Source: Lachnospiraceae bacterium (lineage in GTDB: Bacteria > Bacillota > Clostridia > Lachnospirales > Lachnospiraceae). Taken from it: a stretch of 56,590 nucleotides of DNA. The stretch covers positions 1 to 56,590 of the forward strand of contig JAIKXA010000166.1 in assembly GCA_024684355.1 (NCBI GenBank). The letters run 5' to 3'. The notes under the pieces are model-generated. The model saw only the letters and a list, made by a program, of their open reading frames with translations. It was not told the origin of the DNA and did not search any database. Positions 9,506-56,590 of this stretch are shown here, one piece after another. Position 1 is the stretch's first letter; each line of letters opens with the position of its first letter. The position numbers and the translations under genes were made by a program.

Positions 9506-9826
9506 GTGTCGCCCCTAAATGCGGCGGCCCCAATCTTAATATCGCGATAAAATACAACAAGGGCTCTGTCCGGGCAGCAACCCTAACGAATTGTAGGCCG
9601 CAACGCCTCGTCAAACTTCCTCTAAGAGCAGCAATTAAAAGCGCTCAGCATTGGCTTCGCGTTTTGCTGCTCTAAGAGGCGATTTCGACTCGGCTAAAAC
9701 CGCGGGTCCGTCGGACAAATACAATTCGTTAGGATACTACCCGTCACGAGCCCTTTCTATAATCTGTTAGCGATATTAAGATTTCGCCATGCCCGTGCCG
9801 CCGCCGCATAAGTGGTGGGGCGACAC
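9506..9826. repeat. Large (~320 bp) near-palindromic element, copy A
   Basis: Termini GTGTCGCCCC / GGGGCGACAC; nested arms ATGCGGCGGC, AATCTTAATATCGC, AGGGCTC, CTAACGAATTGTA, CCTCTaAGAGCAGCAA each with reverse complement on the other side. Confidence 0.85.
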
Positions 9827-24540: not shown

Positions 24541-24731
24541 GGCTGTTGTAATACTCAACGTCGTCCCCTCTATTAATACCGCTTTCGTAAAAAAATATAG
24601 GCTCGTGACGGGTATGCTCCCGGGACGAATTGCCTTTGGTGGCAATCTCGTCCGGGATGCTGCCCGGACAGAGCCTATTGTTAGTCTTATTGTGGTATTA
24701 ATAAAGGGGACGACACGTTATTACAAAAGCC
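24541..24731. repeat. Palindromic element, copy B, related to 9506-9826 in opposite orientation
   Basis: GTTGTAATA..ACGTCGTCCCCT / AGGGGACGACACGTTATTACAA ends; GGCTCGTGACGGGTA...CCCGGACAGAGCC core shared with copy A. Confidence 0.85.
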
Positions 24732-50777: not shown

Positions 50778-50847
50778 TGTAACAGGGGACGGTTCTCTGT
50801 TACATTTTTTTGCCGCATACATGTGACAGGGGACGGTTCTCTGTCAC
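50778..50847. repeat. Two REP-like palindromes
   Basis: TGTAACAGGGGACGGTTCTCTGTTACA (50778-50804) and GTGACAGGGGACGGTTCTCTGTCAC (50823-50847). Confidence 0.9.
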
Positions 50848-50970
50848 CAAAAATCTTCAAAAAGTTCTCCAAAACAAATAAACACTAGAATTATTATACT
50901 ACATAATTCCCCAAAATAATATACTTAATTTAAGGAATTTTCCGTTTTGTGGAAGTCGTATGACAGAATC

Positions 50971-51110
50971 GTGTGACAGGGGGTGACAGGGGGGGTGACA
51001 GGGGACGGTTCTCTGTTGCGTTTTCTCCGAAAAAATGTGACAGAGAACCGTCCCCTGTCACCCTGTTGCGTTTTCTCCGAAAAAATGTGACAAAAACCGG
51101 CCCCTATCAC
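50971..51110. repeat. REP-like doublet plus partial tandem copies
   Basis: Successive GTGACAGGGGG units, inverted pair 50995-51061, then direct-repeat TGTTGCGTTTTCTCCGAAAAAATGTGACA with decayed tail AAAAACCGGCCCCTATCAC. Confidence 0.9.
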
Positions 51111-51220
51111 CAAAAATGGGCAAGATATATCAAAAATTTGCCTTTATTTTACTATTATGAACAGTCCGACATATAGTATATTATTATACAGTCAAAAAAC
51201 TATGAGAGGACTATTGGGAA

Positions 51221-52486
51221 ATGAAGAAATTATTTGCAGTGCTGCTCGTAGCAGTGATGGTTTTATCATTTGCGGGATGCAGCGAGAAAAACACAGAACC
51301 TACCAATTCAACAATTACCGATGTTCCGGCAACACCTGAAGCTACTCCGACCGAAGCTGTTACCCCGGAACCCACCGCTGAAGTGACACCTACGGAAGCT
51401 CCCACCGAAGCACCCACAGCCACTCCTACTCCCACTCCCGACCCGATCGAAGGCATGAGCCTTATCGATCTGTTCGCAGAGCACGGAATGAAGGTTGGTA
51501 CCTGTTTAAATTCACAGATGATCGACCGCGCCGGTGTAAAGAAGCTTCTGTTAAACAATTTTAACAGCGTGACCATGGAAAATTCCATGAAGCCCGATTA
51601 TATTTTCAACAAGAAAAAGAGCCAGGAAAGCGGCGAACTTGTTATCGAATTTAATTCCGACGCTTTAAAGATGTTGAAATTTGCCGCAGAAAACGAATTT
51701 TCCATGAGAGGCCATACTCTTATCTGGTACAGCCAGACACCCGATTGGATATTCCATGAGGATTTTGACCAGAATAAGGACCTCGTAGACCGCGATGTCA
51801 TGCTGAACAGAATGGAAATCTACATCAAAAATGTTTTCCAGACCATTGACGAGTTAGGCTACACCGACCTCTTCTATGCTTATGATATCGTAAATGAAGC
51901 ATTGATGGAAAACGGTACGAAGCGTTCGAACCGCTGGACTCAGATTATAGGCGAAGACTATCTGTGGTATGCATTCTACTATGCTGACAAATACGCGCCC
52001 GAAAGCATTGACCTGTATTATAATGATTACAACGAGCAGTTTAAGACACAGACATTGTATGATTTCGTAAACACTCTGGTAGATGAGGACGGCAGGTATT
52101 TGATCGACGGCATCGGACTGCAGGCGCACCTCTACACTTCCGACAGTCTTGATCAGTATTTCAAAACTATAGACAAACTTGCCGAGACAGGCTTAAAGCT
52201 TCAGCTTACCGAACTTGATGTATGTTTGGGCAAATATCAGGCTCCTCAGGCTGGCACAGATGAGAATTTAAGGAAACAGGGCCGTTTCTACTATGACCTC
52301 ATCAACGGTTTATTCGAGCGTGTGGATGCCGGGACTATCAAGATGGATGCGCTGACATTCTGGGGTATAACCGATAGCATGTCATGGAGAAAAGAATACA
52401 AACCTCTATTGTATGATACTCTCCTCAAGCCCAAATATGCTATGTACGGTGTATTCCAGTTGAAAGAATATGCAGGCTTTGATTAA
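51221..52486 (+). CDS. GH10 endo-1,4-beta-xylanase lipoprotein
   Basis: Lipobox SFAGCSE; PTE/PTP linker; SVTMENSMKPD, RGHTLIWYSQTPDWIF, YDIVNEALMENG, LQLTELDVCLG. Confidence 0.95.
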   Translation: MKKLFAVLLVAVMVLSFAGCSEKNTEPTNSTITDVPATPEATPTEAVTPEPTAEVTPTEAPTEAPTATPTPTPDPIEGMSLIDLFAEHGMKVGTCLNSQMIDRAGVKKLLLNNFNSVTMENSMKPDYIFNKKKSQESGELVIEFNSDALKMLKFAAENEFSMRGHTLIWYSQTPDWIFHEDFDQNKDLVDRDVMLNRMEIYIKNVFQTIDELGYTDLFYAYDIVNEALMENGTKRSNRWTQIIGEDYLWYAFYYADKYAPESIDLYYNDYNEQFKTQTLYDFVNTLVDEDGRYLIDGIGLQAHLYTSDSLDQYFKTIDKLAETGLKLQLTELDVCLGKYQAPQAGTDENLRKQGRFYYDLINGLFERVDAGTIKMDALTFWGITDSMSWRKEYKPLLYDTLLKPKYAMYGVFQLKEYAGFD

Positions 52487-52504
52487 ATGAAATTAGGCTT
52501 CGTA

Positions 52505-53107
52505 CTATTGAAATAACAAGATTTGATCCCATGTAACCGTGTTGCCTTTTCTTTCCGGCGTCGATCTGTTTAATTTGTCGTTAAATGGATAACCTATTAT
52601 AAGGCCTCCGGTTATGGTTTCATCTTCTTTAAGACCATGCCTTATCATAAAATCGCGTATAGTCTTATTTTCATCGAGCCAGTGCAGCTGGTTAATCCAG
52701 CAGGAGCCAAGGTCCAGTGCATTTGCGGCAATCATCATGTTTTCGATGGCACATGCACTGTCAGCCATAGCATTTCCGTAGCCTTTTTTATTGGAAACCG
52801 ATATAAATACCGGTGCTCCGTAATGGAACACAAATTTGCCTCTTTTTGAAACCACGATGCATCTTTTCAGGGAAACGTACATCTCATCGGTCTCTTCCAT
52901 CTTGGCAAATTCGTTCTGCACCATATCCGCAAGCTCATCGAGCACTTTTTTGTCCGTAAAAACAATAAAATGCGAGGTCTGGTTGTCATGACCGCTCGGC
53001 GCAAATCTGCCAGCTTCCACCACTTTTTCGATAAGCTCCCGTGACGGCATCTCATCAGAATACTTTCTGGTGCTGCGTCTTGTAAAAATCGCTTCAAGTG
53101 CATCCAT
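52505..53107 (-). CDS. Nitroreductase family protein
   Basis: MDALEAIFTRRSTRKYSDEMPSRELIEKVVEAGRFAPSGHDNQTSHFIV; NMMIAANALDLGSCWI. Confidence 0.92.
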   Translation of the reverse strand: MDALEAIFTRRSTRKYSDEMPSRELIEKVVEAGRFAPSGHDNQTSHFIVFTDKKVLDELADMVQNEFAKMEETDEMYVSLKRCIVVSKRGKFVFHYGAPVFISVSNKKGYGNAMADSACAIENMMIAANALDLGSCWINQLHWLDENKTIRDFMIRHGLKEDETITGGLIIGYPFNDKLNRSTPERKGNTVTWDQILLFQ

Positions 53108-54137
53108 GTATTTGGTACCTCTCTTTCCTTTTGTTACATGAAAGAATTATCTTCCCGATAGTCCCCTCTATACCCGAACCGTCTTCTTCGATGACGATAT
53201 CCGCGTATTTTTCATAAAGAACACAGCGATGATCGTACATATCATCAAAATTTTCTCCATCCTTAAGTACCACACCGCGTTCCTTGATATTACGCAGTCT
53301 GCGGGTTATTTCATCCTTATCGGCTTTAAGATAAATGACTGTGGCTATCCCGGACAGATACTGCATCGCTTTTTCGCTGTATACCACGCTGCCGCCGGTA
53401 GCGATCACCGTATTTACGGGACTGATGGAAAGCGCCGCTTCTTCCTCGCTTTTAAGGAAAGCATCTACTCCCCTCTGCTCTATGATCTCGCAAAGAAGCG
53501 CATGCTCACGCTGCTGTATCACAAGATCCGTATCCAGGAAATCCTTGCCAAGCATCTTAGCCAGAATGACGCCAACAGTACTTTTCCCGGATGCCGGCAT
53601 GCCTGTCAAAACAATATTGGATTTTCCGAGAATGCCCAATTTTTCAAGCTCTGCCATAGTTTCGCCGGAACTGTTATTCAGAATACCGGTACCTCCCATC
53701 GCTTCCCATTCGCGGATGTTTTTCGTAAAATCATCGATCAGGATGCAGTCCTTCCCGGTACAGAAGCGGGCTTTTTCCTCGCGATATACGATGTTTACCT
53801 TTATTTTATCAGACAGCAGCCTTTTAACCCAAGCCTTCTTGTCATCTCCGGCACTGTCAATGCCGCGCTTCGGCTTCGGAATACCGGTGAGGATCTCGCA
53901 TTTATCGCCATACCTGTTATATAGCTCGTCAAACATCTCCTTCGCCCCGGGCATGAGCTCCAGCTTATCATAGAAATGTCCGGCGTCTCTTATCGCATTC
54001 CACATCCTGTCTTCCTTGGCAGAATCATTATTTTTTGCGTTCTGTGATATGGGTTCAAGCCGGCAGATTTCTCTTACTCCGCGAGCAAAATCAGCCAGCA
54101 CGCCATCCATATCAAAATAAATTTTCTTTATTTCCAT
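53094..54137 (-). CDS. HAD (5'-nucleotidase C-like) / shikimate-kinase-like fusion
   Basis: IYFDMDGVLADFARGV at N-term; NIVLTGMPASGKSTVGVILAKMLGKDFLDTDLVIQQ ... ATGGSVVYSEKAMQYL ... VLYEKYADIVIEE at C-term. Confidence 0.88.
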   Translation of the reverse strand: MEIKKIYFDMDGVLADFARGVREICRLEPISQNAKNNDSAKEDRMWNAIRDAGHFYDKLELMPGAKEMFDELYNRYGDKCEILTGIPKPKRGIDSAGDDKKAWVKRLLSDKIKVNIVYREEKARFCTGKDCILIDDFTKNIREWEAMGGTGILNNSSGETMAELEKLGILGKSNIVLTGMPASGKSTVGVILAKMLGKDFLDTDLVIQQREHALLCEIIEQRGVDAFLKSEEEAALSISPVNTVIATGGSVVYSEKAMQYLSGIATVIYLKADKDEITRRLRNIKERGVVLKDGENFDDMYDHRCVLYEKYADIVIEEDGSGIEGTIGKIILSCNKRKERYQIHGCT

Positions 54138-54170
54138 ATTGTTTTCCTTATTGTGTGATTAGTGATGAAC

Positions 54171-54262
54171 GTGACAGGGGACGGTTCTCTGTAACATAAT
54201 GCTTTCGTTTGGGGAAAACGGTATTTTTTCATTTTTGCAACAGAGAACCGTCCCCTGTTACA
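54171..54262. repeat. REP-like doublet
   Basis: GTGACAGGGGACGGTTCTCTGTAACA ... TGCAACAGAGAACCGTCCCCTGTTACA. Confidence 0.9.
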
Positions 54263-54265
54263 TCC

Positions 54266-54667
54266 TCAGCTTTTCCATACGCACATACCCTCGGTAGCCG
54301 CGATACTTTTTACAAGCTCCAGCATATCATCTGAGGGATTATACAGGCTCATATACATATCATCCGGATCTAAAACGAGCAAGGCCTCGCCCACTATTAT
54401 CTGAAGATTCTTGTGGCCGACAAGTCCCCATAATTTATAAACTGTAGCATCACACTCTGGCATTACGATTTTAAAATCAAAATAGCATCGAAGCTTCATC
54501 AGCGCATTATAGAATTTTCTCTTCAAATTCTCCGTATACAGGAAAACCTTTTCCAGTTCTGCATACTCCTTAGCTTTATCCTCCGGAACGCGCCTCGGCA
54601 GGATATCGATTATCCAGCAGGGAGTATTTAACAATTCTTCGATACGATCATTTATTTCATCTGCCAT
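54266..54667 (-). CDS. Conserved hypothetical protein
   Basis: MADEINDRIEELLNTPCWIIDILPRRVPEDKAKEYAELEKVFL; family recalled as common in Clostridia but not named with certainty. Confidence 0.6.
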   Translation of the reverse strand: MADEINDRIEELLNTPCWIIDILPRRVPEDKAKEYAELEKVFLYTENLKRKFYNALMKLRCYFDFKIVMPECDATVYKLWGLVGHKNLQIIVGEALLVLDPDDMYMSLYNPSDDMLELVKSIAATEGMCVWKS

Positions 54668-54684
54668 AACCTGATTCCCTCTTT

Positions 54685-55044
54685 CTATATAATCCTGGCA
54701 CCGACCGGCATAAACGCGAGCTTGGCCATTTTAAAATGCTGCAGCCCGAATGGTATACCGACTACCGTTATGCAATAAATTCCACCGATCACCAGATGCA
54801 AAACCGCCAGTTCAAATCCGCCGAAGATGATCCATAAGACATTTACGAGAAACTTGACTGTTCCTCCGCCATACTCCACTTCCTTTCCAAACGGCCAAAG
54901 GACAAGTATAGCCGCTTTAAAGCACTGTACTCCTATAGGGATTCCCACAACGGTGCAGCACCACAAAAATCCGACTATCGCCCACATTACTGCGCCGATA
55001 AAGCCGCCAAACAAAAACCAAATGAGATTTCCAAGCAATTTCAT
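54685..55044 (-). CDS. YccF domain-containing membrane protein
   Basis: MKLLGNLIWFLFGGFIGAVMWAIVGFLWCCTVVGIPIGVQCFKAAILVLWPFGKEV with repeated YccF unit; start set to 55044. Confidence 0.9.
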   Translation of the reverse strand: MKLLGNLIWFLFGGFIGAVMWAIVGFLWCCTVVGIPIGVQCFKAAILVLWPFGKEVEYGGGTVKFLVNVLWIIFGGFELAVLHLVIGGIYCITVVGIPFGLQHFKMAKLAFMPVGARII

Positions 55045-55279
55045 AAATCTTTCCTTCCAAAAAAAAGTAACTACAATCAATGTCGAATCTAATAGTAGTT
55101 ACATTATACAAATGGTATTCTTAAGTGTCAACAGAATTGGTAATTGAAAACAGTCCCCTGTCACTTCTTGCAAAACGGGAGGCTTTCTGTTAAAATCAAA
55201 CTGAGGACCATAACCCGGTTCCTTCTGTCTCCTGCTGTCCCAACGCCACATTCCATCGCATGCCGGGAGGTGAAATAAT

Positions 55280-56386
55280 TTGAAGAATAGGATTATCATC
55301 TTAATATCGCTGATCATCATAATCTGTCTTACGGGATGTGCCACAGAAGACCCCGATATAACCGGGGAAGTTGAGGAGCATCCGCTAAATGAAAAAGAAA
55401 TCATCAAATACGTACAGGATTATATGTATAACAAGTACAACGATGAGGTAGAAGTCACAGTACTCGGGAAGTATGATCTGACGCATACAACGGAAACCCG
55501 TCCGGGAATTGACGGAGGAACGAGCATTTTCGGCGGCAAATATGCAAAAATAAAAAAAGGCCACCGCTATCGCTTAGAAATAACAAATTCGAAGTACAAC
55601 ATAACCATAAACGGGAATTATTATGACGGATACACTTTGTATGATCAACGCACGCAAGCCTACCAGACTGTTACCAGAACTGTAGAAATCGATTATCAGT
55701 ATACCACGATGAAGGATGAAATACACCTGAAAAAGGAATATGACGAATTTTTAAGCGGTTATTTTACAAAATTTCATTTATACAAAGACCCTGCAAGTCC
55801 GGAGCCCCAGGTCAGTTATTATAATCTCTACTTATACAGTACAGATTACGAGAAAATAAACGAAGCTTTGAGCAAATTGGTTGAGATCAGCCACACCAAA
55901 TACTACAACTGTGTTTATGAACTCAGGGCATTCATTTTTACAGACGAAGCGTTCTATGATTCCATTGATTTTGACAAATGCAATAATATCGATATAGTTC
56001 ATCTCTCCAGCGGTCAAAAAGAGGAGGACCATCCTGACTGGCTGACCGATCTGGAAACAAAATATCATCCGCAAATGATCTTGGAACAGTATTTGAAGCT
56101 GAACTTAACGTTTATTTCAAGCTGTACAAATCTTGACCGGGAAATCTTTATTACAAACGGGCTTTCCGGATGGATTGAAGATAAGGAAGATGGTTCATGG
56201 TATAATCAAGACATTGCAGAGGAAGATATAAAAAAATTCGATCATGTAGTATTTATTTACGAGGGAAATCCGCAGGCATATGCAAACAGTCTGAAACAAA
56301 AAGAAGATATTATAATGTATGCCCATACCGAAGTATACGGGATCAATATGGACGATGTACTGACCAGAAAAAAAGAACAACAATAA
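55280..56386 (+). CDS. Hypothetical lipoprotein (TTG start)
   Basis: LKNRIIILISLIIIICLTGCATE lipobox; GGGAGGTG upstream. Confidence 0.7.
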   Translation: MKNRIIILISLIIIICLTGCATEDPDITGEVEEHPLNEKEIIKYVQDYMYNKYNDEVEVTVLGKYDLTHTTETRPGIDGGTSIFGGKYAKIKKGHRYRLEITNSKYNITINGNYYDGYTLYDQRTQAYQTVTRTVEIDYQYTTMKDEIHLKKEYDEFLSGYFTKFHLYKDPASPEPQVSYYNLYLYSTDYEKINEALSKLVEISHTKYYNCVYELRAFIFTDEAFYDSIDFDKCNNIDIVHLSSGQKEEDHPDWLTDLETKYHPQMILEQYLKLNLTFISSCTNLDREIFITNGLSGWIEDKEDGSWYNQDIAEEDIKKFDHVVFIYEGNPQAYANSLKQKEDIIMYAHTEVYGINMDDVLTRKKEQQ

Positions 56387-56508
56387 ATAAGACGGGCCAC
56401 TTTAAAATGGCCCGCCTTTTATTGTGTCTGTTTCTCTGCTTTCCTAAATCTTTCTCTCCAGCCAATGTATTTCCCGGATGATATCCCCTTATCTGCCGGT
56501 TTCTGTGT

Positions 56509-56574
56509 GTAACAGGGGACGGTTCTCTGTTACGTTTTTTCCAAAAAATGTAACAGAGAACCGTCCCCTGTCAC
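56509..56574. repeat. REP-like doublet
   Basis: GTAACAGGGGACGGTTCTCTGTTACGTTTTTTCCAAAAAATGTAACAGAGAACCGTCCCCTGTCAC. Confidence 0.9.
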
Positions 56575-56590
56575 CTGCCGCAGAAAATAC

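Follow-up and report, generated by a model that had tools for sequence, protein, structure and literature searches.

A dispersed palindromic element with a conserved mismatched core and a candidate structured RNA domain in Lachnospiraceae

The attC sites of integrons are long imperfect hairpins in which some unpaired bases are conserved and the terminal part varies, and bacterial MITEs with conserved RNA structure are known from bcr1 of the Bacillus cereus group and from the ERIC/RU elements. The CGTC-tagged REP superfamily comprises palindromes of 20-40 bp that have unpaired CCA-like tails, stems of 8-9 bp conserved within a family and no dedicated transposase, and no Firmicutes are listed for it (PMC3733652).

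Here we describe a palindromic element found in a stretch of Lachnospiraceae DNA of 56,590 nucleotides, which is referred to below as the window, and in which a sequence-only reading had pointed out two copies, A and B. The element resembles integron attC sites in all of these respects, but its ends carry GGGCTC/GAGCCC or GGACG/CTG rather than GTTRRRY/RYYYAAC boxes, and it has no cassette structure. With Rho-independent terminators it has in common a GC stem just past stop codons with a T-rich tract behind it, and it differs from them in having a conserved mismatched core and a tip domain that are repeated at unlinked genes. Like bcr1 and ERIC/RU (RU: PMC2229807), it is small, non-coding and dispersed, and it folds end to end with compensatory changes; unlike them, it shows no duplicated target, its arms are not common to copies outside the window's genus, and its sequence and host group are different. 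Finally, it resembles the CGTC REPs (PMC3733652) in being palindromic, intergenic and dispersed, in carrying, in genera other than the window's, a CGTC tag at one end (GACG on the other strand), in forming head-to-head pairs and in lacking a known transposase, but it has a structured tip of ~125 nt and stems that are usually 22-28 bp long and copy-specific.

Copies A and B and the anatomy of the core

Direct reading places the ends of copy A, GTGTCGCCCC and GGGGCGACAC, at positions 9506-9515 and 9817-9826, and its core letters at 9561-9566 (GGGCTC), 9567-9579 (TGTCCGGGCAGCA), 9738-9747 (TACCCGTCAC) and 9748-9753 (GAGCCC). Relative to dinucleotide-preserving shuffles, both copies fold far more stably than expected: copy A at -146.1 kcal/mol versus -92.0 ± 5.8 (z -9.3; none of 100 shuffles as good), and copy B at -100.4 versus -50.1 ± 4.1 (z -12.2; none of 200 as good). 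A and B are placed and spelled as the sequence-only reading had them. Its claim that both retain an asymmetric core also holds, copy B carrying the same core as A on the minus strand, at 24600-24675. The neighbours of A are a converging family-2 glycosyltransferase gene and an HU gene, and B lies directly beyond the stop codon of a periplasmic-binding-protein gene. The interior of A had been read as nested arms; it does fold, but the loop at 9596-9719 is a conserved domain in its own right. The parts of the two copies are as follows.

9506-9826, plus strand: copy A, the full-size palindromic element (fold z -9.3; covariance-model hits; orthologous site free of the element in three sibling species)
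9506-9545, plus strand: left outer arm, made up of GTGTCGCCCC, part of a local GC hairpin and ATCTTAATATCGC (recurrence of TCTTAATATCGC; helix 1 of A3, with compensatory change in 12 of 12 pairs)
9561-9579, plus strand: left half of the core, with GGGCTC stem, TGTC mismatch, CGGG stem and CAGCA mismatch (TGTC without change in all 51 copies; covariation of CGGG/CCCG)
9580-9595, plus strand: left strand of the variable stem, ACCCTAACGAATTGTA (sequence varies among copies; pairing with 9720-9735 kept)
9596-9719, plus strand: RNA-like tip domain, GGCCGCAACG ... GATTTCGACTCGGCTAAAACCGCGGGTCCGTCGGACAAA (homologous across Lachnospiraceae by covariance-model searches and covariation; no Rfam match)
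9720-9735, plus strand: right strand of the variable stem, TACAATTCGTTAGGAT (pairs with 9580-9595)
9736-9753, plus strand: right half of the core, with ACTA mismatch, CCCG stem, TCAC mismatch and GAGCCC stem, then CTTTCTATAA (each TCAC position kept in 50 or more of 51 copies; T-rich tract after it)
9770-9826, plus strand: right outer arm, GCGATATTAAGATTTCGCCATGCCCGTGCCGCCGCC...GGGGCGACAC (segment AAGATWWCGCCACGCCCGAGCCGCCGC common to many copies)
24541-24731, minus strand: copy B, a probable short-tip derivative of A's element (fold z -12.2; 143 bits with covariance model R1, of which B is a training sequence)
24600-24675, minus strand: core of B, with a tip hairpin ATTGCCACCAAAGGCAAT in place of the RNA-like domain

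A and B are both real, but they are not a pair; the window's genome has at least 9-10 copies, among which these are two. The 13-mer TGTCCGGGCAGCA, with up to one mismatch, occurs nine times there, versus one hit in a reversed control, and model R1 locates further places beyond these occurrences, its E-values being rough because the calibration was short. Each of three sibling genomes (G001, G003 and G006) has some 15-20 copies, and three other genomes of the genus have a few; copies were found in none of the remaining 17 of 24 genus genomes and in none of 37 genomes outside the genus, most of the genomes examined being incomplete metagenome-assembled genomes (MAGs). When 85,462 species were scanned with the core pattern, matches came from the rumen or omasum Lachnospiraceae MAGs RUG11977, RGIG8006, RGIG2768 and RUI154, and one further matching contig is labelled Ruminococcus sp. 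RGIG8224.

Across 51 copies, the core runs from an A-rich stretch through GGGCTC, TGTC, CGGG, CAGCAT and CCCG to the variable stem and tip, and returns through CGGG, AGCATA or AACTA, CCCG, TCAC and GAGCCC to a T-rich tract (C-T-T-T/A-T-T-T-T). TGTC and TCAC, which are mismatched with each other, are essentially invariant in these copies, a constancy that is somewhat favoured by the collection of the copies with core-containing patterns. Between them, the CGGG/CCCG stem covaries, with a change from G-C to A-T at one pair and from C-G to T-A at another. In two distant copies (L098 of G016 and L101 of G004) the inner stem is wholly different, and GGCTC-TGTC and TCAC-GAGCC are retained. Outward from the core lie AT-rich spacers and then TCTTAATATCGC and GCGATATTAAGA, to which full-size copies add a GC-rich arm. 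In four genomes, TCTTAATATCGC was counted 32 times, versus one reversed-control hit, and its non-coding occurrences accompany a core, whole or remnant; therefore, arms and core make up one element. The terminal arms are common to full-size copies in the window's genus and unrelated between copies in other genera.

We then aligned 40 copies to R1, a fit that biases the alignment toward the pairing of the model. Standard pairs fill 92.5% of paired cells, 188 cells are double-changed versus 52.9 after shuffling and no more than 52 after sliding, and compensatory change is seen in 12 of 12 outer-arm pairs. This bears out the earlier claim that the internal mismatches are conserved (TGTC in 51 of 51 copies) while the stems covary. 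The outer arms change in step. In most orthologous pairs the core shows 0 changes in 48 positions, whereas third codon positions of the flanking genes differ by 6-44%; for L086 and L069, for example, the figures are 0 of 48 and 75 of 169. Either selection or gene conversion between copies can explain this near-identity. At several loci the core is kept in all four species and the arms have diverged beyond alignment. Given that the core is common to four species at many loci, much of the pattern is old inheritance.

The tip domain and its arms in other genera

The tip domain of copy A (9596-9719) is ~125 nt long, and complete copies have tips of about 105-130 nt. Long tips recur elsewhere in the window's genome (L110, L226, L257) and in G006 (L211), G001 (L071) and G016 (L232). 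A copy in G022 (L095), intermediate between the long-tip and short-tip forms, keeps remnants of the domain. Given this distribution, the long form is likely ancestral, and short-tip copies are likely derivatives, B through deletion of the tip.

In a search of 397 Lachnospiraceae genomes, model R2, trained on five copies from the window's genus only, found the tip domain in 15 genera. A broader model, R3, whose training set includes the window's genus, found it in at least 36 of the 397 genomes and at least 34 of 334 genera; these counts are lower bounds, up to eight candidates per genome having been scored. Such a search had been proposed in the sequence-only reading. In a phylum-wide draw of 399 genomes, R3 matched two, both from Lachnospiraceae and one of them that of the window, and no genome outside the family.

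In a MAFFT alignment of 26 tip copies made from sequence only, GCAACGC, GAUUUC and GCUAA are invariant or nearly so. Compensatory change is found in 22 of 28 pairs, and 114 cells are double-changed versus 29.2 in shuffled and at most 24 in slid versions; one pair is G-U in 17 copies and A-U in 9. G-U outnumbers A-C by 43 to 16 in the tip and by 38 to 19 in arms and core, an excess that points to an RNA of the domain's strand.

A match to an existing Rfam family had been named as a refutation, and none fell on the element. Searching the whole window with all 4227 families of Rfam 15 at the gathering cut-off returned a cobalamin riboswitch alone (RF00174; 986-1163, minus strand). No match to the element was seen for copy A at E-values up to 5, in eight further copies or in eleven loci from other genera, and we found no description of this element in the literature. 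The tip domain is an uncatalogued candidate structured RNA. It is multicopy in up to a tenth of the sampled genera of Lachnospiraceae, a dominant gut and rumen family. In one genome (G395), a TwoAYGGAY RNA (RF01731, 78 bits; an orphan Rfam family; L336, 1172-1336, minus strand) directly adjoins a copy of the domain.

In other genera the tip domain is framed as GGACG-X-domain-X'-CTGnnnnYYGG. Among 43 copies, a few of which are entered twice under two locus ids, 35 close this frame with 9 or more of the 12 pairs formed; the mean in shuffles is 0.04. X is 22-28 nt long in all but two of the 35 closing copies (65 and 70). Each X is a nearly perfect complement of its own X' (median score 24) and bears no relation to the X arms of the genome's other copies (median score 6). 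Copies also occur in head-to-head pairs 110-820 bp apart, and one other genome has five near-identical copies in different surroundings. In G348, near-identical copies (L351-L357) adjoin a second, unrelated inverted-repeat family, and the length of the left end varies among them.

What is known of repeats does not readily explain inverted arms that are copy-specific and usually of fixed length. Two sources for them were considered and rejected. The arms of L342 and L411 were examined for an origin in local sequence; a significant direct copy of the start of X stands just upstream in L329 and L411 only, so such copying is not general. The 70-77 nt arms of L342 and L329, searched as possible phage- or plasmid-derived spacers, gave only chance matches (one collection each). 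The least exotic candidate is drift kept palindromic by hairpin-templated repair. Tentatively, and against what we think are the odds, the arms may instead mark a new kind of bacterial element, in which a conserved structured RNA domain sits on a copy-specific, near-perfectly self-complementary stem of ~25 bp between constant tags (GGACG ... CTGnnnnYYGG). If this were true, a dedicated process would make or capture a fresh inverted arm for each copy, or the arm would be used as a guide, and copy A would be the form that this system takes in the window's genus.

Gain, loss and position at gene ends

Presence and absence of the element were compared at orthologous sites. Three sibling species have the site of copy A, and in each of them it is empty. 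The engB locus carries the element in three siblings and a plain hairpin only in the window's genome; likewise, at the trmE locus, which is filled in other species, the outgroup G022 has only a hairpin. The empty sites that the sequence-only reading had suggested looking for were therefore found, but the target-site duplication was not: none is visible at A against the three empty sites or at the engB locus, a weak test given that the flanks have diverged. One intergenic locus (L050, L071, L089 and L104) carries the core in opposite orientations among four species, which suggests inversion inside the palindrome. The dispersion of the copies and the filled and empty sites lead us to infer mobility. 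The sequence-only interpretation is borne out in part: the mismatches are conserved, the stems covary, no Rfam family matches and the element is dispersed. MITE-like mobility is not supported, neither a target-site duplication nor a linked enzyme having been found. Sampled phages and plasmids gave no match to A or to the tip domain, and viral contigs matched neither the core nor the tip pattern. We also considered whether the long outer arms are host-derived inverted duplications, which looks plausible at L068 and the engB locus; the right-arm segment conserved across copies argues against this as a rule.

By a rough call of coding strands, the left half of the core lies 6-100 nt past a stop codon in most copies of the window's lineage, and no copy there lies between divergent genes. 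In a count of independent co-directional loci, the core follows the orientation of the upstream gene at about 13 and opposes it at 3. In other genera, by a rougher gene call, all gene arrangements are represented. The composition of the core flanks and their positions give a GC-rich stem and a T-rich tract downstream of a gene, as in an intrinsic terminator, and shrunken, symmetrical versions at several loci (L220 and L024 among them) are plain terminator hairpins. A simple terminator scan called neither A nor B because it considers short hairpins only. Many copies thus probably act as terminators. The earlier statement that the element is "not just a terminator" is right in that it is a dispersed element, but it understated a role that many core-only copies at gene ends appear to have.

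Explanations for the element and neighbouring repeats

We favour, with a probability of about 0.58, the reading that A and B belong to a dispersed, non-autonomous family of palindromes that is mobile, carries a structured RNA tip and has in part been domesticated as terminators in the window's lineage. A complete copy is a long hairpin with the mismatched, conserved core in both arms and a strand-specific, structured RNA-like domain at its tip. It would spread through a trans-acting enzyme that recognises the folded strand, as RNA or single-stranded DNA, by the core mismatches and the tip domain, and it would settle where insertion is tolerated, at gene 3' ends. In the window's lineage most copies have lost the tip, and the core, with its A-rich stretch, GC stem and T-rich tract, may have been retained for ending transcription of the upstream gene. 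This would be a clean case of a repeat turning into gene-end architecture.

The strong covariation, the conserved unpaired GCAACGC, GAUUUC and GCUAA, the strand bias and the occurrence in 34 genera would also suit stationary non-coding RNA genes or cis-regulatory RNAs, in which the tip is the functional part, an RNA that binds a protein or ligand, the palindrome serves it as scaffold and terminator, and copies arise by ordinary duplication. We consider this rather unlikely, since copies adjoin unrelated genes with no constant neighbour, most copies of the window's lineage have lost the domain and kept the core, and near-identical copies stand in differing contexts within one genome. Clearly unlikely, in our judgement, are REP/BIME-type repeats mobilised by RAYT (Y1 HUH) transposases, the GGACG end being, on the opposite strand, the tag that gives the CGTC REP superfamily its name. 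Such a relationship is favoured by the head-to-head pairs and by the tags, GGACG and CTGnnnnYYGG, that 35 of 43 copies from other genera carry, CGTC-tagged palindromes being a known superfamily (PMC3733652). However, REPs are 20-40 bp long with family-conserved stems, versus 190-330 bp with copy-specific stems here, and the GGACG/CTG arrangement is absent from the core of the window's genus, A and B included. A link to RAYT (PF01797) was rejected because RAYT is absent from the carriers G001 and G003, whose assemblies are incomplete, and the element does not flank RAYT genes, no core lying near those at the loci checked; RAYT is present in non-carriers.

A classical MITE, derived from a DNA transposon by internal deletion and mobilised by a DDE transposase through terminal inverted repeats (GGGGCTGTCGC...), would account for outer arms common to full-size copies at unlinked loci, such as L065, L104 and L232. 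It nevertheless seems highly unlikely, given that no target-site duplication is seen, that GGGGCTGYCGCA hairpins also stand alone as plain terminators and that arms are wholly different between copies in other genera. Ordinary intrinsic terminators, alike by convergence and gene conversion, would fit the position after stop codons, the T-rich tract and the degenerate forms that are plain terminators, but we find them scarcely credible as the whole explanation: convergence cannot account for a 76-nt core whose mismatches are invariant and for a tip domain that is homologous across 34 genera. Further copies without conservation of the core motif had been named as a refutation of the sequence-only reading; instead, the core recurs in dozens of them.

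Several other repeats lie close to the element. In the last 6 kb of the window, at 50779-56576, lie seven copies of another dispersed palindromic repeat, GTGACAGGGGACGGTTCTCTGTCAC, some of them as inverted pairs, and a related sequence, CAATCAGAGGGACGGTTCTCTGATTG, adjoins copies L058 and L096. The outer arms of L062, L084, L108 and L199 are a palindrome, GGGGTCAGGTACCATTAA..., and one resembling it is found close to a RAYT-like gene of G006 (L199). Half-cores occur in tandem arrays at L137 (3625-3877), L060, L092 and L059; in G004 the array has 10.5 repeats of a 24-bp unit with GGCTCTGTC, and in G006 and G003 the arrays consist of right core halves. A different palindromic module (CTCCATTTTGCTTCGCAAAACGGAGCCGTGGCA...GCGACTGACACCTCGTGCCGT) is nested in the tips of seven core copies (L063, L075, L076, L079, L107, L110 and L240). 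At one locus it is present in L076 and absent in L055 and L090.
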